Of a DNA stretch of 37,760 nt, positions 14,047-27,021 are shown piece by piece (within the stretch, counting starts at the first letter, position 1; the number at the start of each line of letters is the position of its first letter). The DNA comes from a virus. Location of the stretch: positions 1-37,760 of the IMG/VR virus record IMGVR_UViG_3300032053_000219. One strand, 5' to 3'. The translations under genes were made by a program, and so were the position numbers. The notes beneath the pieces were generated by a model. The model worked only from the letters and a program-made list of their open reading frames with translations. It searched no databases and was not told the DNA's origin.

Positions 14047-14682
14047 TCAGTGCGTCAGCAACACGTCGAGAGTCAGGCTGCGAGCCATGCGACGGGCGGA
14101 TTCCAGATCGGCGGGATTGTTGATATCGAGGCTCGATTCCCAACTGATCGGGCTGGCGAAGGCGGGATGTCTCCAGATTCCATTCCGCTGGCTTTCGTTG
14201 AATGGCTGGCGGGCGATCGCGAAATTTCCGGTTACAACAGTCGTCGTCGGGAGTTGCTGGCTTTTCGTGTTGCCGTCGCCGCATTGATGCAACGGGCCAA
14301 CGTAAGCGGAATAGATGTAGGGCAGGGGACTGGCGAGGGCTTTTTCAATTTCGCTGCGATAGGTGAATGGGCTCGTGCATTGGATCAGGAGAATCGTTTC
14401 GCCGGGGTGGCAGTCGATCACGTCGGCGAGGATGCCGTCACCTTGGCGGGTGTCCTGAATGTCCTCCAGGCAGCGACCGTGAAGTTCACAACCGTGACGG
14501 ATTGCCAGCTTGCTTGTTTCGTGGTCCTCAGTCGCGACGACAATCGGCACGCCGGGCAGCATGCGTTGATAGAGTTCGATCGACCAGGCGAGGAGTGACT
14601 TGCCGGGGATGATCTCCTGCAGATTCTTATGCGGGATGCGGGTTGACCCGCCACGAGCGGGAATGAGGATTCGCAAATTCAT
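14047..14682 (-). CDS. NeuA-like CMP-sugar (acylneuraminate) cytidylyltransferase
   Basis: The N terminus ILIPARGGSTRIPHKNLQEI (residues 5-24) is the CTP-binding signature of CMP-sialic acid and CMP-nonulosonate synthetases (CTP + sugar acid gives CMP-sugar + PPi). Later IQCTSPFTYRSEIEKAL fits the conserved L-x-TSPFR-type region. At 211 residues it has about the usual catalytic length. It is last in a cassette of overlapping genes (ATGA with the DUF115 gene). No genes for making sialic, pseudaminic or legionaminic acid are present, so the host would supply the sugar. The substrate could also be Kdo-like; the exact sugar cannot be read from sequence. Confidence 0.85.
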   Translation of the reverse strand: MNLRILIPARGGSTRIPHKNLQEIIPGKSLLAWSIELYQRMLPGVPIVVATEDHETSKLAIRHGCELHGRCLEDIQDTRQGDGILADVIDCHPGETILLIQCTSPFTYRSEIEKALASPLPYIYSAYVGPLHQCGDGNTKSQQLPTTTVVTGNFAIARQPFNESQRNGIWRHPAFASPISWESSLDINNPADLESARRMARSLTLDVLLTH

Positions 14683-15341
14683 GATTCGAATTGATGCCCC
14701 TCATGTCCGAGATTAACGAACGGGCTGAGCGTGCAGACTCGGCAGCCGTAGACCTCTTGCAGTTTGTCGCGAAGCGTGACTGTCTGACCTCGCATCTGGC
14801 GGATGAAATCGACGTACCAGTCCGTGCGTTCGGGGGTCGCTTCAGCCGCGTCGTAGCCGGTGTACTGAATCTTTCCATCGAGAGTCCCAGCGTCGGCTCC
14901 GCACAGCATGATCAGCTTCGCCCCCATGTACGCGGCCAGGTGAATGGCTGACGTGATCGTCGAGTACGAGACGACCAGTTCATCCGTGCCGATCACTTCC
15001 CAATCGACGTTTGTATGACGATTTGGCGGATGGTCGAAGATGTAGTGCTCGATATCGATATCGCGGTTGAGCGGGGCGTAATTCTTGTTGCCGTAGGCGT
15101 GGCGACTGACGACGGGGATCGCCCCGGCCGCGGCGGATTCGAGCAGATCGCTGTTGCCGAGTTCCTTCGCGACGGTGTACTTGACCGGGAAACGGCGATA
15201 GACCGTGTTACAGCCGATGGCGATCCGGTCACGAAAGAATTCAGGCGGGTGATGGTCCATGCTCGCGCCGCTGCCGAGAACGAACAGATCTTGCCCGGCG
15301 TGCTTGTTTTTCAGGGCAGTGATGGAATGATCGTCCGTCAT
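14679..15341 (-). CDS. DUF115 / Maf-like protein, possible glycosyltransferase
   Basis: LFVLGSGASMDHHPPEFFRD followed by IAIGCNTVYRRFP, and later YSTITSAIHLAAYMGAKLIM with LCGADAG, is the pattern of the DUF115 family. That family includes MptE-like pterin enzymes and the motility-associated factors (Maf) that place nonulosonic acids on Ser/Thr of flagellin. The neighbouring CMP-sugar synthetase favours the second role. At 220 residues it is shorter than Maf proteins and comprises mainly the core domain. It overlaps both neighbours as ATGA. Acceptor and donor are inferred from context only. Confidence 0.65.
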   Translation of the reverse strand: MTDDHSITALKNKHAGQDLFVLGSGASMDHHPPEFFRDRIAIGCNTVYRRFPVKYTVAKELGNSDLLESAAAGAIPVVSRHAYGNKNYAPLNRDIDIEHYIFDHPPNRHTNVDWEVIGTDELVVSYSTITSAIHLAAYMGAKLIMLCGADAGTLDGKIQYTGYDAAEATPERTDWYVDFIRQMRGQTVTLRDKLQEVYGCRVCTLSPFVNLGHEGHQFES

Positions 15342-16111
15342 ACGGAAGCCTTCGCGGGAAGTGAATGCGAGGCGTAAACCGCCTTCGTTTCGTCGTCGAA
15401 TTCGGGGGCCAGGATCAGGTCACGGTTGCCCGGCTGGCGAGGGACGCGATCGTACCAGCCCTCGTCGTCGGGGGATTGCATGAAGTGCTGGCCGTGATAG
15501 GCTTGCGTGCTGCCGTAGCGGAAACAGTAGGACGGCGGGGCTGAGAGGCACGGGTCCACGATGACCGGCGATTCAGATCGCGTGAGATTATAAATCAACT
15601 GCTGGTCGAAGTCGGCTCGGCGAGTCGCGGGCCAGCCGCCGACGCGATTGAATGCCGTTGTTGAGAATGCGAGCGAGGCGTGGAAGCGGCCGGTGGCGTT
15701 CTCGGCGACGACGTGACCGGGATAGGTGCTGAGCACGGTTGACGGCTTGCTGTAGTGGGCTCCTGTCGTGAGCATTGCGTTGACGTGGGCGCTGATGTGA
15801 TGCGGCAAATAGATGTCGTCATCTTCCCACACGACGAAGATTTCGGTTTTCGGCCAGCAACCACGGGCAAGGTTCGCGGCGGCGTTGAACTTTTCCGGTA
15901 GCGTCGGGAATCGGAAATCAGAGCTGATGATTTCCCAGCCGCCAGGGTGGGTTCGATTGTCGGTTGATGCGAAGTCGAGGCCGTCGTCCAGGATCATCAA
16001 CCCGCGACGATCTGCGGGGTAGTCCTGGGCAAGGAAACAGGCGAGGGCATTCGCCAACAACTTGGGACGGTGGAATGTCGGGCATAAGCAAGCGACGAAA
16101 GGAAGTTCCAT
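15338..16111 (-). CDS. GT-A fold glycosyltransferase (GT2-like)
   Basis: The start MELPFVACLCPTFHRPKLLA and the metal-binding VVWEDDDIYLP (DxD type) define a GT-A glycosyltransferase using a nucleotide sugar. The 257 residues match a single catalytic domain without membrane segments. The start overlaps the stop of the small membrane protein (TAATG), and the end overlaps the DUF115 gene (ATGA). It may extend an O-glycan or modify a host surface polymer. Donor specificity is not visible. Confidence 0.85.
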   Translation of the reverse strand: MELPFVACLCPTFHRPKLLANALACFLAQDYPADRRGLMILDDGLDFASTDNRTHPGGWEIISSDFRFPTLPEKFNAAANLARGCWPKTEIFVVWEDDDIYLPHHISAHVNAMLTTGAHYSKPSTVLSTYPGHVVAENATGRFHASLAFSTTAFNRVGGWPATRRADFDQQLIYNLTRSESPVIVDPCLSAPPSYCFRYGSTQAYHGQHFMQSPDDEGWYDRVPRQPGNRDLILAPEFDDETKAVYASHSLPAKASV

Positions 16112-16257
16112 TAGTTACTCCAGAGTTTAGAAATTAAGACACAGATGCCGACGAACACCTTCGAAGCGACAAAACCAACCACTAGCCAAAAGCCGATCGC
16201 GTGGGCTTTATGCCACCACAGCAACCGGCGACAAAGTTTGATTTCTTCGGGCGTCAT
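16111..16257 (-). CDS. Small single-span membrane protein (48 aa)
   Basis: A basic N terminus (TPEEIKLCRRLLWWHKAHAI) precedes one hydrophobic helix (FWLVVGFVASKVFVGICVLI) and a short tail. ATG at 16257 lies in ATGA with the upstream glycosyltransferase and has GAGGG ahead. The stop shares TAATG with the next gene. It could anchor the glycosylation enzymes at the membrane or be an unrelated lysis factor. No family is recognised. Confidence 0.7.
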   Translation of the reverse strand: MTPEEIKLCRRLLWWHKAHAIGFWLVVGFVASKVFVGICVLISKLWSN

Positions 16258-18311
16258 GCGGCCCTCTTCAGATTCTTGTCTTGGATTTCTCTCGCTCGCT
16301 TGATGCACAATTTCACTAGCGATTCGAACGGGTTGAGCGGGTTGATTTCCCAGGCGATGCCAGTGAAGAATGAACGAGCGATTGCCGACGCGAGATCCAA
16401 GCCCGACCATGTCCCGTCGCGTAGCCAGGCCGTGATCGTTTCGAAGTTCGCCGGGTCTTCGCAGCCGTCGACGCCCCACACGTCCATCTGTGCGGCTCGG
16501 CTGTTACAGACACACGTTGGACCGGGATGAATGCCGAGTGATGCGAGGATCTTCTTGAGTTCCGTGCCGGGCCCGTGCGAGACGTTGAAGCCTTCGACGG
16601 GAGTCTCGGGCCGGTCATCGAGCACGCACGACAGGACCGTGAGGCCGTACTGATGTTTCGCGTGATCGATCACGGCCCATTGCGGGTTGTGATCGCAGAA
16701 TTCCGCAATCGCCAGCCGCAAGCCGAGCTGCCCGTCCTCGCCCCGCTCGCCGTATATTTCGGTATCGTGGATCGCGATGAATCGGCGGCACCGTGGAGCG
16801 TAGGTCTGCAGCTCGGTCAACAGTTGGTGATAGGTGTGCTTCGTGTCGATGAACAACAAATCATTCTCGGGAATCTCCGCGAGGATGTGGCCCATGTTGT
16901 ACGGCCGTGGCGTGAACTTGGTCGTGTCGCTGACGAGTGACCCGGCCTTCATCACATGATTATCGACCTCGGTCGTGAAGCTGGCCAACGACTGCGGACG
17001 ACCCGCGAGGAGGCCGATTGTACTTTCACGGCGGCCGGTCAATTCGACCACGACGCCAGCGGCTTGACTCGCGAGAATTCGGAACGCGGGCATGTGTTCG
17101 TTGAGGTCGCGGGGGATTGGAGCGACTTCATCAAACAGAGCTTCGATCGTTGCGAGATGTGGCAACAGTGCCGCGGCGTTCGCGACGGCCATCATTCGCG
17201 GACCGGGATCTTCGAGCGTGTTGATCGGATCAGCCACGATGGCGTCCCAGGCGTCGGCCGTGATGTAGTACAGGGTTCGCGGCGGATTCTCGGCGAGGTG
17301 TTCCGGCAGTGGCGTCTCGACGAAATGTTTTCGGATAGGATCGAGCGGCAATCCGACTTCGTTGAATTCCAAAACCAGATTGCGGACCTTGTCGAAATTC
17401 GTGTTCGGATATTTCGCCCCGCCCTCACGGTAGAAACGGTGATTCCACAGCACGCCGGGAATGCAGAGTGCTCGATGCCCGGCCTTGCGGAATTTCTCGT
17501 GGATGTACAACTCCTCGCCGCCAAACGCTCGGGTGTGGGGGTTGAAACCCAGCCACGCTTCACGTCGGCAACTGAAGAATCCCAAGCCTTGGCCGGGGAT
17601 CTCGAACGCCGGGCCGGGATTGATGCCAGCGGGGGCGAAACCGCGTTGAATGCACTTCGCTTCGTGGCCGTGCCAGTTGACGTCGGGAATCGGCTTGTGG
17701 CACGCTTCGCATTCGCCGATCGGGATGTTGCCGAGTTGCAACCGTCGCGGCATGGCGAGCTCGCTGCCCGATTCGAACTTGACTTTTTGCAGATCGAAAT
17801 ACGAGCCGTGCGGGCCGCACTGGCATTGCCACGCCTGAGACCACTGGCCCCACATGCCGCCTCCCCAGTCGTCGCGGAAGTGAGTCGAGAACGAATCGAG
17901 CGAATCCATGATCAACGCACCTGATAACAGGTCGGACGTGTCGGGATTCGCGGCGTAGTAGGCCAGCAATCGGGGCAGGGCTTGCGGATCGAGTGCCAGG
18001 TGGCAATCCATGACGACCACGTAGCGGCCTTGAGCGTGATCGAAGATCGCGTTGCGGCTGGCCGATGTCCCCTTGATGTTGTCCAGCTCACGGTAGATCG
18101 GCTCCCAGGTGTGATCGGATCGCTTTGTATGAGTGAGTACATTGCGAATCGCGTCGGCCGTGCGGGCGTCTTCTGGGCTGTTATTGATCACAAGGAATTG
18201 CACCTGGGACATCAGGGCGGCGTTGTTGAGGCGGATGGACTGGATCGTCGCCCACAGGCCCGCGAAGTCCTGATAGTGAGCCATGCCGATTGTGAGGAGC
18301 GGTTGTTCCAT
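16254..18311 (-). CDS. GT27-like glycosyltransferase fused to methyltransferase-like domain
   Basis: Residues 1 to about 300 form a GT-A domain resembling polypeptide GalNAc-transferases. The metal motif is MDCH (DxH, 102-104) after KGTSASRNAIFDHAQGRYVV. Near residues 264-292 are FGGEELYIHEKF and a later NHRFYR, comparable to the WGGEN..HVFR region of GT27. A zinc-knuckle insertion (CEACH...HEAKC, about 200-219) interrupts it. The middle (about 380 to 580) contains LLFIDTKHTYHQLLTELQTY and IHDTEIYG, as in SAM-dependent or cephalosporin-hydroxylase-like methyltransferases. The end (GTELKKILASLGI, then CVCNSRAAQMD) is a module I associate with planctomycete phage and surface proteins. ATG at 18311 has AAGGAA upstream. 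It directly follows the mucin-like gene, its probable acceptor. Confidence 0.8.
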   Translation of the reverse strand: MEQPLLTIGMAHYQDFAGLWATIQSIRLNNAALMSQVQFLVINNSPEDARTADAIRNVLTHTKRSDHTWEPIYRELDNIKGTSASRNAIFDHAQGRYVVVMDCHLALDPQALPRLLAYYAANPDTSDLLSGALIMDSLDSFSTHFRDDWGGGMWGQWSQAWQCQCGPHGSYFDLQKVKFESGSELAMPRRLQLGNIPIGECEACHKPIPDVNWHGHEAKCIQRGFAPAGINPGPAFEIPGQGLGFFSCRREAWLGFNPHTRAFGGEELYIHEKFRKAGHRALCIPGVLWNHRFYREGGAKYPNTNFDKVRNLVLEFNEVGLPLDPIRKHFVETPLPEHLAENPPRTLYYITADAWDAIVADPINTLEDPGPRMMAVANAAALLPHLATIEALFDEVAPIPRDLNEHMPAFRILASQAAGVVVELTGRRESTIGLLAGRPQSLASFTTEVDNHVMKAGSLVSDTTKFTPRPYNMGHILAEIPENDLLFIDTKHTYHQLLTELQTYAPRCRRFIAIHDTEIYGERGEDGQLGLRLAIAEFCDHNPQWAVIDHAKHQYGLTVLSCVLDDRPETPVEGFNVSHGPGTELKKILASLGIHPGPTCVCNSRAAQMDVWGVDGCEDPANFETITAWLRDGTWSGLDLASAIARSFFTGIAWEINPLNPFESLVKLCIKRAREIQDKNLKRAA

Positions 18312-18335
18312 TGATTGGTGTTCCTTTTGCTTGAG

Positions 18336-20918
18336 TTATGGTCCGCCGGTCGTGGTGGCTCCGCTGGTGGTGGTTGGGGCGGCGGTCGTCGTGGGTGCTG
18401 GCGTTGTTGTCGGGCAGGGCTCCCATGTTCCGTTACAGGGCATGGTGAAGCCGGAGCCTACGGTATTGACTGGGTCGAGTTCTCCGCAGTTCGGGCGGCC
18501 GGAGGGGTCGGGGCAGCTTGAACAGGGGAGCGGGCAGGTGTCTGATACGAGCGTCAAGACTCCGGCAGTGAAGACGTGGTAGCCGCATGATCCGGTTGCG
18601 GGGTCGCAAGTGGTGGTTGTGGGGGCTCCGGTGGTCGTGGGTGCGGAGGTTGTCGTTGCGGCAGCCGTGGTTGTGGGAGCGGCGGTGGTTGTGGCTTCCC
18701 CGGTCGTCGTCGGTGCGGCGGTCGTCGTCGCTCCGCTGGTCGTCGTCGGTGCGGCAGTTGTGGTTGCATCTCCGGTGGTTGTCGGTGCGGCTGTTGTCGT
18801 CGGAGCGGCTGTTGTCGTCGGAGCGGCTGTTGTCGTCGGTGCGGCTGTTGTCGTCGGCGGGGCGGTCGTGCTGGTCGTCGTCGTGGTCGTCGTTGCGCAG
18901 GGGACGGCGTTGGTGACGCAGTCGGTGTTGATGCTGCCGTTGGTCATGTCTCCGATGGGGGCACAGCAGACGTTGCAGACGGTCGGGCCGAAACTTTCGC
19001 AGAGATTGATATCGAGGGTGAAATTTCCGTTTCCGTCGCCGGTCCAGTGGCAGCCGTTGCCGATGCAGGGGGCGGCGGTCGTGGTGGTGGGCGAACTGGT
19101 TGTCGTGGGGGTTCCGGTGGTGGTGGTCCCTCCGCAGGCGGTCCAGATCGAGGCACAGACTTCTAGCGGCAGGTCGCTGGGGACAGTACAGGTACACGGT
19201 TCGCAATTATTCGTAACGAGCGTCCAGCCGCTCATGTCGCCGTTGGAACGATAACGGCAGCGTTCGCAGGGCTGCGGCGTGGTACTAGTACTGGTGGTAG
19301 ACGTACAGCGGTCGGCGCAAGTTGGCGGAAGCGTCGTCGTTGCCGGGGCACTGGTCGTTGTGGTTGGCAATAGGTCGAATCCGCAAGGCGTGATGACATC
19401 GTCGCCGCATTCGCCGGGAGCGGTTGACGGGGCGTTGCAATTGCACTGTCCGGTCGAGTTCGGGGGGACTCGACCATTGGAAACGCAGCTCTTGGTTTTC
19501 AGCAGCCAGCCGCCATTGAACGGCACGAAGCGACACGAACCCGTGCAGAGCGGGGCGGGGGGCGGAGTGGTCGGGATTGGCGGCGGTGGGGGCGGACAGC
19601 CGGTGTGGACTCGGACGCAGGAGTCAGCGGCCATCGCGGCCTGTTGCTCGGATGTGGGTGTAACGCAGCCGCAACCGCTGTAATAGCCAGTGCAGCCGCT
19701 GTTGACGTCGTAATCGCCAACCGTGATAAGAAGTCCTGTGACGGGATTGACTGCCCAATCGCAACCGGGTCCGTCACAGTAGGCGGCGGGGTCTTCGGTC
19801 GTGGTGGTGGTGGTCGTCGTCGTGCTAGTCCCACAGTCGCACGGGTCGACGGTGGTGGTGGTCGTCGTAATGTTTGGCTGGCAAACGGGCTCGGTAACGG
19901 TTCGCGTCACGCAATTCGACGTGAAGCATTCGCCGTGGAATGTGCCACAATAAGCGGGCGGGGCACAGCGACACGGAACCGGCGTCGTGGTAGTGGTCGT
20001 GGTTGTGGTCGTGCCAGGATCGGCGGTCGTCGTAGAAGTCGTGCGAGGCGGACAGCGAGTCGTGGTGGTCGTGGTGGTGGTCGTCGTCGTGCTGGCTCCG
20101 GGAATGCCGGTTGTCGACGTGGTCGGAGCGGGCGTGGTTGTGGGAGCGAGTGTTGTCGTACTGGTCGTACTGGTCGTGGTCGACGCACAGCTATCAGTCT
20201 CGACGGTCCAGCTTCCCGTTTCTGCACTCCAGATGAATTTGCACGTTCCGTCGCACGGCGAGATCTCCGGATTCGGGGTCGTCGTGGTCGTACTGGTGGT
20301 GGTCGTGGTGGTCGTCGTCGTCGTGCCCGAACCGTCCACGAATGCGGGATTGTGCTGCGGATTCAGGGCCACGAGTACCCATCGCAGATCGTCGCAGTCG
20401 AGTTCATCGTCCTGCCAGACGATCGGAGCGGATGCCCCTGTATCGTACTCGCGACGGCGGAGTGAATGTGTTTCGCCGCTGCGAACATCGGCGTAGGCTC
20501 CCGTCGGTCCGTCGTCTGGATCATGCAACCTCGCGGCCGTCAGCCCCACAGCCATGCCTCGCCCAGGCTGACCAGCAATCAACGGTTCCTGCAGCACGAC
20601 AAAGCGGCCGCTGTGGGTTCCTTCGACGGGCTCCACGCCACGGATTCGCGGGGCTTCCGTGAATGCGGGCAATGAGTCGCCCGGCAGAAACACCGGGCCG
20701 TCAATGCCCAGAATATCGAACTGGTCGAGATCGTCGCCGGTATCGTTGACGACCGTGATGATTCCCGTTTGCAGATGGTCGCGTTTGCTGGTCGGAGCGA
20801 ACGACTGCTGGCCCTTGCGCAAGATCTCCGCAGCAGCCTGAGCCATCGCGTTGTGTGTGGACGCGGACGGTTGCCACTTCTGACCAGACGTGATTTTCTT
20901 GAGCGGATCGCCGGACAT
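18336..20918 (-). CDS. Mucin-like Thr-rich, Cys-module virion protein, candidate tail fibre
   Basis: An N-terminal domain of about 195 residues (TGIITVVNDTGDDLDQFDIL, FVVLQEPLIAGQPGRGMAVG) resembles proteins in planctomycete prophages. The rest alternates runs of Thr (up to ten in a row) and Thr-Ala-Pro repeats with compact cysteine modules such as CDGTCKFIWS, CTGSCRFVPF, CERCRYRSN and CIGNGCHWTGD. Each of these is followed by an aromatic-rich strand and more cysteines. There is no signal peptide or membrane anchor. Thr-Ala-Pro repeats are classic mucin O-glycan acceptors. The start overlaps the distal tail gene as TAATG, suggesting a virion component. Disulfide-stapled modules on glycosylated stalks would form an extended fibre. 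The role is inferred from composition and place. Confidence 0.8.
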   Translation of the reverse strand: MSGDPLKKITSGQKWQPSASTHNAMAQAAAEILRKGQQSFAPTSKRDHLQTGIITVVNDTGDDLDQFDILGIDGPVFLPGDSLPAFTEAPRIRGVEPVEGTHSGRFVVLQEPLIAGQPGRGMAVGLTAARLHDPDDGPTGAYADVRSGETHSLRRREYDTGASAPIVWQDDELDCDDLRWVLVALNPQHNPAFVDGSGTTTTTTTTTTSTTTTTPNPEISPCDGTCKFIWSAETGSWTVETDSCASTTTSTTSTTTLAPTTTPAPTTSTTGIPGASTTTTTTTTTTTRCPPRTTSTTTADPGTTTTTTTTTTPVPCRCAPPAYCGTFHGECFTSNCVTRTVTEPVCQPNITTTTTTVDPCDCGTSTTTTTTTTTEDPAAYCDGPGCDWAVNPVTGLLITVGDYDVNSGCTGYYSGCGCVTPTSEQQAAMAADSCVRVHTGCPPPPPPIPTTPPPAPLCTGSCRFVPFNGGWLLKTKSCVSNGRVPPNSTGQCNCNAPSTAPGECGDDVITPCGFDLLPTTTTSAPATTTLPPTCADRCTSTTSTSTTPQPCERCRYRSNGDMSGWTLVTNNCEPCTCTVPSDLPLEVCASIWTACGGTTTTGTPTTTSSPTTTTAAPCIGNGCHWTGDGNGNFTLDINLCESFGPTVCNVCCAPIGDMTNGSINTDCVTNAVPCATTTTTTTSTTAPPTTTAAPTTTAAPTTTAAPTTTAAPTTTGDATTTAAPTTTSGATTTAAPTTTGEATTTAAPTTTAAATTTSAPTTTGAPTTTTCDPATGSCGYHVFTAGVLTLVSDTCPLPCSSCPDPSGRPNCGELDPVNTVGSGFTMPCNGTWEPCPTTTPAPTTTAAPTTTSGATTTGGP
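18610..18870 (-). repeat. Low-complexity Thr-Ala-Pro coding repeat
   Basis: Here units near 15 bp encode PTTTA, PTTTG and related pentapeptides, with exact tandem copies (gcggctgttgtcgtcgg repeated near 18787-18855). Such arrays expand and contract by slippage, giving length variants of the stalk. Plus-strand Val-rich ORFs over this region are shadows. Confidence 0.8.
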
Positions 20919-21931: not shown

Positions 21932-23890
21932 TTACGTTCCGTAGGCAATGCCTTGTTCGGCCTTGTCGGCAATGCGTTTGGTTTCTTTGGCGGTAGTCTC
22001 GGCGGCCTTCGCCGTGCGTTCGGCGATGGCGGAATCCTTCGCGGCGGCGTTGTCGCGAATCGGTGTCTGCGGTGCGAGCTCGCCCCCTTTGAAATCAGCA
22101 GGAAGTGCGATGCCAAACATATTCCCAGCGACGGGCTTGTGTAGCGCAGATGAATTGGGTTTCATGAATCCCGCTTCTTTCGCCGCACGGATCGCCCCTT
22201 CATTCATCCCGGTTGTCTTGCCGCCCATGCCGGTGATTCGCGTCTTGATTTCTTTCAGTTCGCCCAGGCTGGCGTTGACGTCTTTCGCCATGCGTTCCTG
22301 CCAGCCATTGAAGCCGCCCAGGCCGATGGCACCTCGAGCTGTGAGAGCGTCGGCTGTGTCGTCCTTTTTGCCGCCGCCCTTTTTCTTTTTCTTCGCGTCT
22401 TCTTCAGCCGTGATTTTGTCGATGTCTGGAGTCTTGCCGAAACTCAATCGGTCCTCGGGCTTGACGCCGTCAATCAGGCCCTGCAGAACGGCCTTTGCGA
22501 GCGTCAACTGTCCCGCGTCCTTGTCAGCCGCGGCTTGAGATGCGGCCTGCCGCCCCTTCGCTCCGTCATTGAATCCTTTCGCCATTCCGCCCGTGAGGCT
22601 TGTCCCAATGTCCACACCGGTCATCTGCTTGAACTCGGTGGCGAACGCGTGCATTTCGTTGAGCAGGCCACTCAGACGTGAGGTGAACGCGTCAGCAATG
22701 AAATCCGTGAAGCCTCGCCAAACAGCTTTCAATGCGTTCACGGTCGCAATCCAGCCGACGTTGATTGCCGCCCCGGCAATGTCCCAGGCCGCTTCGATGT
22801 TGCCGGATTGAATTGCGTTAGCGATGCCCTGCACGACGGCCGTGGTTTCTCCCAGCAGATCATTGGCCATCCGCGACATTGCCGAGAATCCACCCGTGAC
22901 ATAACCCACGACGCCCACGACAGCCGCTCCGGCTGCGATCACCCACGTGACGGGACTCATCGCCACGGCAGCGAGAACGCCACCTGCGGCCATCAATCCA
23001 GGAATCGCCGCACCGGCCAGAGTCAGGCCCAAGCCCATCGTTGTGAGTGCCCCGCCAACAGCGAGAATGCCAGCCGCCGCGGCCGCTGCCGTGGTGATCA
23101 TCCCCTTGTTGTCCTTGATGAATTCCGTGACAGGCTTCGCAACCGAAACGAACAAGTCAGTGGCAGACTTCAACGCCGGAGCCAACGCCCCGCCGATTGC
23201 GTTCGCCACAGCCATGCCAGCCGACTTGAGGTCATCGAGAGAGTCACCAAACGCATCAGCCGCTGCGGCATCTTCGGCGGACATCGTGAGGCCCAATCGC
23301 TCCGCTCGTTCTCGCAATTGATCGAGGCCGGCCGAACCGTGGGCCAGCAGCGGAATCAGGTCGCCGCCCCCCTTGCCGAAGATCGCTCGGGCAAGGTCGG
23401 TCCGGATGTTGACGTCGCTGATTGCCGCGAGCTTGTCCGCGAAGATCGAGAGTTGTTGTTCGGGCAGCTTGCCGCGAAGATCGGTCGCCGTCAGTCCCAA
23501 TTTCTTCAGCGACAGCACGGCCGATTCTTCGTGCTGGATCGCTCCGGAAATTGTTTCGGACATTTTGCCGATCGATTTTTCGAGCGTCCCGATTTCCGTT
23601 CCCGATTGAACGGCCGCGTACTGCAGTTGCGAGACCGCTTCCACTCCCATGCCCGTGCGTTTCGCAAAGTCGCTGATCTTCGAGCCGTTGTCGGCAAATG
23701 CCTTGGCGGACAATGCGAACGGGGCCACGAGTCCCGCACCGAGAGCCGACAGTCCCGCACCGAGAGCCGTGATCTGGCTGGCCCATTGCTTGGATTCGTC
23801 GGCCGCCGCCTTCAGTCCAGCCGTGAGGCGTTTCTTGTCGGCCCATAACTCGACGTAGGCACCGCCCGCTCTGATGTCGCCTGCTCCCAT
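21932..23890 (-). CDS. Tail tape measure protein
   Basis: The 652-residue protein opens as tape measures do (AYVELWADKKRLTAGLKAAA) and has Ala/Gly-rich helices. A conserved segment, KISDFAKRTGMGVEAVSQLQ, is typical of the phage tail tape measure family, and there are two long hydrophobic stretches (about 270 to 340). It sets tail length and is ejected with the DNA. The moderate length suggests a tail near 90 to 100 nm if the usual ratio applies. ATG at 23890 has AGGTGA upstream and follows the chaperone frame by 3 bases. Confidence 0.92.
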   Translation of the reverse strand: MGAGDIRAGGAYVELWADKKRLTAGLKAAADESKQWASQITALGAGLSALGAGLVAPFALSAKAFADNGSKISDFAKRTGMGVEAVSQLQYAAVQSGTEIGTLEKSIGKMSETISGAIQHEESAVLSLKKLGLTATDLRGKLPEQQLSIFADKLAAISDVNIRTDLARAIFGKGGGDLIPLLAHGSAGLDQLRERAERLGLTMSAEDAAAADAFGDSLDDLKSAGMAVANAIGGALAPALKSATDLFVSVAKPVTEFIKDNKGMITTAAAAAAGILAVGGALTTMGLGLTLAGAAIPGLMAAGGVLAAVAMSPVTWVIAAGAAVVGVVGYVTGGFSAMSRMANDLLGETTAVVQGIANAIQSGNIEAAWDIAGAAINVGWIATVNALKAVWRGFTDFIADAFTSRLSGLLNEMHAFATEFKQMTGVDIGTSLTGGMAKGFNDGAKGRQAASQAAADKDAGQLTLAKAVLQGLIDGVKPEDRLSFGKTPDIDKITAEEDAKKKKKGGGKKDDTADALTARGAIGLGGFNGWQERMAKDVNASLGELKEIKTRITGMGGKTTGMNEGAIRAAKEAGFMKPNSSALHKPVAGNMFGIALPADFKGGELAPQTPIRDNAAAKDSAIAERTAKAAETTAKETKRIADKAEQGIAYGT

Positions 23891-26538: not shown

Positions 26539-26607
26539 TTGCAGGCCCCGGAGTTGAACCGGGCGGCCGCGACTTATGAGGCCGCGATGAACACCGGTTC
26601 GCCTGCC
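26539..26607 (-). tRNA. tRNA with CAU anticodon, short D arm
   Basis: The 69-nt sequence folds with an acceptor stem GGCAGGC/GCCTGCA (6 of 7 pairs). The anticodon arm is GCGGC-CTCATAA-GTCGC (5 pairs, one G-U, T33 and A37 present). The T arm is perfect: CCCGG-TTCAACT-CCGGG. The D region is only about 15 nt and folds as GAAC-CGGT-GTTC. CCA is not encoded. Anticodon CAU fits elongator Met, initiator Met or Ile2. It lies 3 bases after the thioredoxin gene, inside the late operon. Confidence 0.7.
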
Positions 26608-26610
26608 AAC

Positions 26611-27021
26611 TCATTGCGTCAGCCGCCAGCGCTGCACAACCTTTTCCGCCCCCGGATAACCCAGGATGTACCGCGTCCGCCCCTTCGCTTCCCAGGCGAT
26701 CGCGGGGATCTCGGTACACCATTCCGGCTGCCCGCCGCGAGACACATCGACTAGCTGCACATCAAACGGGACTTGATGCGTTTTCGCGTAGGCGTCCCAG
26801 TCGGCCTTCGCGGGACGACACGGACCGCACCACGTCGCCCAATACACGCGGACAATTGATCGTTGTTTCGTTGTCGCGGCCGGAGTTGGCTCCGGCACCT
26901 TCGGACCGCGAACCGCAATGGCTGTCGAGACACGAGCTTTCCAGTAAGCCGCGTCCTGGACATCAGCCAGGACCACGGCCAGTGAAATCATGTGCAACGC
27001 GACAACAAGTGAATTTCTCAT
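26611..27021 (-). CDS. Exported thioredoxin-like protein
   Basis: A signal-like N terminus (MRNSLVVALHMISLAVVLAD) is followed by a thioredoxin fold with VRVYWATWCGPCRPAKADW (CGPC at 65-68) and the cis-Pro region TEIPAIAWEA. The product of 136 residues would act outside the cytoplasm as a disulfide or redox enzyme. ATG at 27021 gives a proper signal sequence and overlaps the peptidase stop as TGATG. Neighbours include a papain-like peptidase and a Cys-rich fibre whose disulfides could be targets. Confidence 0.85.
   Translation of the reverse strand: MRNSLVVALHMISLAVVLADVQDAAYWKARVSTAIAVRGPKVPEPTPAATTKQRSIVRVYWATWCGPCRPAKADWDAYAKTHQVPFDVQLVDVSRGGQPEWCTEIPAIAWEAKGRTRYILGYPGAEKVVQRWRLTQ

Follow-up and report, generated by a model that had tools for sequence, protein, structure and literature searches.

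The 37,760-base virus record IMGVR_UViG_3300032053_000219, analysed here in its entirety and hereafter called the window, carries on its minus strand a six-gene cluster (positions 14047-20918) that probably encodes a phage mucin-like glycoprotein together with the enzymes that decorate it. The cluster adjoins the tape-measure gene and one further tail gene (P0007) of a tailed-phage record, in which family searches placed the terminase, portal, head protease and tape-measure genes also on the minus strand. All six open reading frames (ORFs) given in a preliminary description of this DNA were found again in place and on that strand (Table 1). They comprise a Thr/Cys-rich protein (P0006), the glycosyltransferase (GT) fusion P0005, whose start lies 24 bases past the end of the P0006 gene, a short peptide (P0004), a second GT (P0003) and the proteins P0002 and P0001, and the five enzyme and peptide genes do overlap by 1-4 bases as had been reported (16254/16257, 16111/16111, 15338/15341 and 14679/14682).

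Threonine accounts for 214 of the 860 residues of P0006 (25%), which also contains 52 cysteines, and the protein had no match in Pfam or PHROG. Besides three clear copies of a Cys module, it has a weaker one at residues 377-456 (module hidden Markov model, HMM, E 0.002). The module, of about 50 residues with the consensus C-x-G-x-C-x-W-x-W...W...C..GC.C..P...C and up to nine copies per protein, was shared by 52 of the 78 non-redundant Thr/Cys-rich proteins; of 4,551 other ORFs, 2 had it, both immediately upstream of a GT27-like gene. Since the Thr runs of P0006 are written with mixed ACC, ACG, ACA and ACT codons, they are not one slipped trinucleotide, which rules out a slippage artefact. P0006 thus combines long tandem-repeat linkers rich in Thr, Ser and Pro with Cys-rich modules on either side, the features by which we define a mucin-like protein, and composition, tandem repeat and module HMM confirm the Thr-Ala-Pro-rich, Cys-module protein first described. 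Its N-terminus has homologues in the Thr/Cys-rich proteins of four other loci (L112, L113, L043 and L003; L numbers denote the loci compared), and relatives of P0007 occupy the same position in L112, L113, L039, L042, L043, L047 and L003; from gene position we infer that P0006 is located in the tail. Other such proteins carry further parts: in L009 (1361-7318), the mucin-like Thr/Cys-rich region occupies the C-terminal part of a protein of 1985 aa, the N-terminal 1250 aa of which lack a family match, and the Thr/Cys-rich protein of L106 (7829-9982) also has a second type of Cys module (C..GPF....C....C) and a Gly-rich stretch.

P0005 is a fusion of two or three domains, namely a GT27-like domain, a methyltransferase-like domain that is conserved in its long-form relatives, and a C-terminal domain. 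The N-terminal domain matched Pfam Glycos_transf_2 over the cut-off (E 2e-10). In the AlphaFold2 model of P0005 (predicted local distance difference test, pLDDT, 71, with a poor insert at residues 135-232), this domain matched GalNAc-T2 in Foldseek (E 1e-9), and the first 25 VIA matches were all polypeptide N-acetylgalactosaminyltransferases (ppGalNAc-Ts; Z 20-22), the best at Z 22.1 over 259 residues and 3.6 A. From sequence, the GT27-like profile reached GalNAc-T4 (E 5e-4) with D-x-H and the distal His aligned, and among viral relatives the metal ligands D102 and H104 were kept in 79/79 and H291 in 80/80. Structure comparison and the D-x-H...H ligands therefore support the GT27-like assignment made earlier. 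With the animal and apicomplexan GT27 ppGalNAc-Ts, P0005 shares the predicted fold, these ligands and the GGE region, and a Thr/Pro/Ala-rich acceptor is common to both systems; it differs from them in its methyltransferase-like fusion and presumably cytoplasmic location, at about 15% identity. A C-terminal ricin-type lectin domain is usual in the GT27 family. Because this domain is absent from P0005, where the methyltransferase-like domain stands in its place, we call the enzyme GT27-like and not GT27, with N-acetylgalactosamine (GalNAc) as a putative first sugar.

No relatives were found with P0005, P0007, the terminase or P0002 as single-protein scan queries, by tblastn searches of cultured phages with P0005, P0001, P0002 and two relatives, or by a tblastn search of plasmids with P0005. 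They were reached through a scan with P0003 and then with profiles, the GT27-like profile giving matches to at least 567 viral stretches and 94 from genomes, with 80 retained from each set. In the 24 viral loci of the P0003 scan, the recurring order was tape measure, tail gene, Thr/Cys-rich gene, GT27-like gene and GT2 gene. When a Thr/Cys-rich neighbour was defined as an adjacent same-strand ORF with at least 11% Thr and at least 3% Cys, it was present in 29 of the 31 non-redundant long-form loci with flanks, and the two remaining ones (L009 and L052) had the Cys module in a gene missing the composition cuts, so that the pairing held in 31/31. Such a composition was found in 0/121 ORFs farther off in the same loci and 0/527 in other phage loci (0/648 together), and in 1/645 ORFs of cellular loci. 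Among short-form loci, 18/25 had a Thr/Cys-rich neighbour, upstream of the GT in 12 and downstream in 6. To avoid circularity, the reverse scan was made without the GT, by running a DNA pattern for TTTTxxPCxGxC, the linker-module junction, over 2.9 million viral contigs. It matched 72 stretches, 64 of them within Thr/Cys-rich ORFs, and a GT27-like gene was found, mostly within 400 bases, for 34 of the 36 such ORFs with at least 2.5 kb downstream; the two exceptions were ORFs of 73 and 107 aa lacking the Cys module, and none of the 8 remaining pattern stretches had a GT27-like gene. Nine of those 34 contigs also belonged to the forward set, and without them the count was 25/27, near-identical records being retained. 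These results show that the GT is tied to a Thr/Cys-rich tail-region protein, as had been suggested for this locus, and that, in the search for the same gene order elsewhere, the core pair recurs widely: it is shared by many uncultured phages, far outside this record. The GT27-like domain, with invariant D-x-H and HRF, was also seen in 300-1150-aa ORFs of Alphaproteobacteria, Thermomicrobiales, Desulfobulbaceae and others (L115-L185), and three separate contigs of one Schlesneria metagenome-assembled genome (MAG), L108, L109 and L110, each encode a GT27-like/methyltransferase fusion, which in L109 lies downstream of a 1350-aa ORF that is heptosyltransferase-like by eye.

The second GT, P0003, matched Pfam Glycos_transf_2 below the cut-off (E 0.002). 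A GT2 partner lay at most 2.5 kb from the GT27-like gene in 50/55 long-form loci, and in L010 the two enzymes are fused into one protein. Beside the core, other phages carry methyltransferases (L030, L036), TylF (L053), sulfotransferases (L005, L078) or an epimerase (L005); since these accessory genes differ between phages, the decoration would vary while the core stays.

The last two genes may supply an acidic cap. The CTP_transf_3 match of P0001 (E 5e-12; 46.6 bits against a cut-off of 22.6) and its ARGGS..IP.KN motif (ARGGSTRIPHKN) support the NeuA-like synthetase of the preliminary description as NeuA/PseF-like, the best NCBIfam model being PseF at 38.4 bits, far below the cut-off of 205.7, so that the equivalog level of NeuA or PseF was not reached. 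For P0002, first described as DUF115/Maf-like, the MptE-like/DUF115 match (E 4e-4; PF01973 20.8 bits) was below the cut-off of 34.6, and a model of good quality (pLDDT 88; predicted template modelling score, pTM, 0.89) supports a sialyltransferase-fold protein: the GT42 sialyltransferases Cst-I and Cst-II matched at Z 10.9 and 10.6 over 167-178 residues and the mammalian ST8Sia/ST3Gal enzymes at Z about 9. For both P0005 and P0002, the predicted structures agree with the families proposed. The resemblance of P0002 to both Cst-II and Maf fits, since the central PF01973 domain of Maf has been described as similar to Cst-II (PMC11339370). Like the Maf flagellin nonulosonate transferases (MptE/DUF115, PF01973), for which Ser/Thr acceptors are known (PMC11339370), P0002 has the superfamily fold of GT42 and is paired with a CMP-sugar synthetase; in contrast to Maf, it is a single 220-aa domain without flanking domains. 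With GT42 it shares the fold, and a cytidine monophosphate (CMP)-linked acid would be the expected donor, although it is a smaller protein of 14% identity. The P0002 family occurs in at least 113 viral loci, and CTP_transf_3 genes lay near its closest relatives in 6/50 records (one below the family cut-off), the P0002-like and PseF-like genes being immediate neighbours in L209 and overlapping each other in L218. NeuB is encoded in L207, L209 and L220 (E below 1e-61), the last with a UDP-N-acetylglucosamine 2-epimerase as well. P0002 and a CMP-nonulosonate synthetase thus form a recurring unit. L207, L209 and L220 appear as phage nonulosonate operons, in which NeuB is encoded next to or close by CMP-sugar synthetases and P0002-like proteins, and no Thr/Cys-rich gene was seen in them. 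By CTP_transf_3 search, none of the 48 cassette-bearing virus records had a CMP-sugar synthetase beside the cassette, and two had one away from it; the putative cap is therefore not part of the core, and is a phage-specific add-on.

Table 1. Features of the cluster and its neighbours in the window, with the basis of each call.
Feature	Positions	Strand	Basis
P0008, tail tape-measure protein	21932..23890	-	PHROG tail tape measure, E 6e-33
P0007, conserved tail protein between tape measure and P0006	20918..21928	-	same-position relatives in other loci
P0006, 860-aa Thr/Cys-rich mucin-like protein, predicted tail-region virion acceptor	18336..20918	-	composition; position after tail genes
P0006 N-terminal domain, about 190 aa, likely virion-anchoring	20349..20918	-	homologous N-termini elsewhere
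P0006 Cys module 1, residues 218-289	20052..20267	-	module HMM, E 1e-6
P0006 Cys module, residues 454-531	19326..19559	-	module HMM, E 5e-7
P0006 Cys module, residues 547-610	19089..19280	-	module HMM, E 4e-10
P0006 Thr-Thr-Thr-Ala-Ala-Pro-type tandem repeat linker, residues 676-770	18609..18893	-	18-base imperfect tandem repeat
P0005, 685-aa GT27-like glycosyltransferase fused to methyltransferase-like domain	16254..18311	-	family, structure and ligand comparison
P0005 GT27-like domain, residues 1-366	17214..18311	-	VIA matches; conserved ligands
P0005 methyltransferase-like domain, about residues 403-570	16602..17105	-	Methyltransf_24 and RMNT_CmcI, both below cut-off
P0004, 48-aa single-pass membrane peptide	16111..16257	-	sequence
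P0003, 257-aa GT2 glycosyltransferase, WEDDDIY motif	15338..16111	-	24 viral relatives
P0002, 220-aa sialyltransferase-fold protein (MptE/DUF115, GT42-like)	14679..15341	-	structure model; fold matches
P0001, 211-aa CMP-sugar synthetase, NeuA/PseF-like	14047..14682	-	CTP_transf_3 over cut-off

Several observations weigh against a mucin decorated and capped by these enzymes. Regarding the cap, the top fold match of P0002 was the archaeal HPPK/MptE 8sd5 (Z 12.5), slightly above Cst-I; the catalytic His188 of Cst-II had no obvious counterpart in P0002 by eye; and a search of the phage found no NeuB, so that the cap would need a host precursor. Of 199 sampled planctomycete genomes, 77 matched NeuB strongly (E no higher than about 1e-38), but the MAG with the closest tape measure did not. 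Regarding the core, bacterial GT-A enzymes came next in VIA at Z 18-20 (RmlT at Z 20), which makes the lead of GT27 (Z 22) a modest one; if the Cys modules are disulfide-bonded, the reducing cytoplasm could not be where those bonds arise; and 7/25 short-form loci had no clear Thr/Cys-rich neighbour, one of them, L080, having the Cys module. The long cellular proteins of L115-L185 and the three Schlesneria loci have the same GT domain without such a neighbour. The domain by itself, therefore, does not imply a mucin acceptor, and it is the linkage that bears the argument.

The alternative that survives best concerns the cap only and is compatible with the core explanation. P0001 and P0002 might make or use CMP-Kdo (Kdo, 3-deoxy-D-manno-octulosonic acid), or P0002 might be a pterin-kinase-like protein of unrelated role, as its match to 8sd5, the absence of NeuB and the KdsB models that also match P0001 would allow. 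However, PseF was the best model for P0001 and for its phage relatives, P0002-like genes directly adjoin PseF-like ones, with NeuB nearby in some loci, and two GT families of sialyltransferases match the P0002 fold; we hold this alternative to be a serious possibility, though short of an even chance. For the core, the linkage might reflect mere tail-module synteny of related phages, with the GT acting on another virion protein, such as the capsid or the tail tube, as in mycobacteriophages: most loci have the order of tape measure, tail gene, acceptor and GT in common, and the GT/methyltransferase cassettes of Corndog and Che8 are tied to capsid and tail tube (PMC4351075, PMC12363180). Yet the acceptor-GT order is reversed in the short-form clade, the GTs are just 30-42% identical to P0005, and a GT is present beside every module-bearing gene with room downstream, and we consider this explanation unlikely. 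That the enzymes act on a polymer or lipid of the host surface (for serotype conversion or superinfection exclusion), the Thr/Cys-rich protein being an unglycosylated extended fibre, is improbable, for although GtrB-type phage GTs act in this way, the operon has a membrane peptide and P0005 a weak GtrB-like PHROG match, the cassette contains no GtrA/flippase-like or multi-pass membrane enzyme, comes after the tail genes, and shows the GT and the Thr/Cys-rich gene to be near-obligate partners, whichever of them the search starts from and in either of two gene orders.

Freeman et al. (2023), as cited in PMC12363180 and PMC12619734, reportedly studied the glycosylation of mycobacteriophage virions. 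Mycobacteriophages glycosylate their capsid and tail tube with GTs of their own, and in the midst of its structural genes Corndog encodes two GTs, a GlcNAc-transferase (GlcNAc, N-acetylglucosamine) and an O-methyltransferase (PMC4351075, PMC12363180, PMC12619734). Che8 (gp108-110) and Corndog (gp35-38) resemble the present phage in that a methyltransferase adjoins a phage-encoded GT or is joined to it in one protein, and differ in their acceptors, which are capsid and tail tube there and, as predicted, a mucin-like Thr/Cys-rich protein here. Che8 gp108-110 did not match the GT27-like profile, gp108 giving a weak generic GT2 match to the P0003 profile, and a close link to the Che8 enzymes was rejected on the former ground. 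Our literature search, from which subscription papers were mostly absent, found nothing relevant on phage mucins or GT27 in phages and no paper on planctomycete phages, an absence that is weak evidence. It is to this extent in agreement with the earlier statement that no example is known, since none was found with a dedicated mucin-like acceptor and a GT27-like enzyme. Since Che8 gp108-110 showed no recognisable relationship to the GT27-like family, we predict that the locus represents a form of phage virion glycosylation whose initiating enzyme is distinct and whose dedicated mucin-like acceptor is, as far as found, undescribed.

As for the host, the tape measure, the tail gene and the P0006 N-terminal domain have relatives in planctomycete MAGs (L112 and L113). 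On L106, a 478-kb contig of a Pirellulales MAG, the cassette lies close to an integrase gene and to genes of the host, SIR2 among them, and so appears to belong to an integrated prophage. The planctomycete host assumed in the preliminary description is accordingly likely for this phage, short of proven. Elsewhere in the window, a tRNA-Met gene (anticodon CAT, 26539-26611) sits within the structural gene block, and no relatives of P0004 were detected in the search.

From the computed genes, families, folds and linkage we infer the following route. P0006 would be a tail-region virion protein in which Cys-rich modules are spaced by Thr/Ala/Pro linkers. The GT27-like domain of P0005 would put the first sugar on linker Thr/Ser in the host cytoplasm, as its fold, metal ligands and near-obligate linkage suggest, and the methyltransferase-like domain may then O-methylate that sugar, to which P0003 may add a second one. 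P0001 would join CMP to a nonulosonic or Kdo-type acid obtained from a host precursor, and P0002 would transfer the activated acid as an acidic cap. The first steps would be the core of many phages, and the cap an addition like the sulfotransferases and extra methyltransferases of others. Of the capped O-glycan first proposed, the enzyme families and their pairing with an acceptor stood; the putative cap proved to be a local add-on in a phage without NeuB. Such a coat would probably stabilise the fibre, shield it from proteases or take part in interactions with surfaces.

To our knowledge, mucin-type O-glycosylation is held to be a eukaryotic trait, and phage virions are seen as mostly naked protein. 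We see about an even chance that many uncultured phages, those of planctomycetes included, build true mucins, in which a virion protein of Cys modules and poly-Thr is O-glycosylated by the GT27-like enzyme of the phage, methylated, extended and, here, capped with a sialic-acid-like sugar, to give a variable sugar coat on the tail. If so, virion glycosylation, with module and initiating enzyme co-occurring in many phages, would be a common and testable strategy, the module would be a new protein family without a Pfam match, and these phages would be a source of O-glycosylation enzymes that work in bacterial hosts. It could also help to explain how some phages interact with hosts such as planctomycetes.

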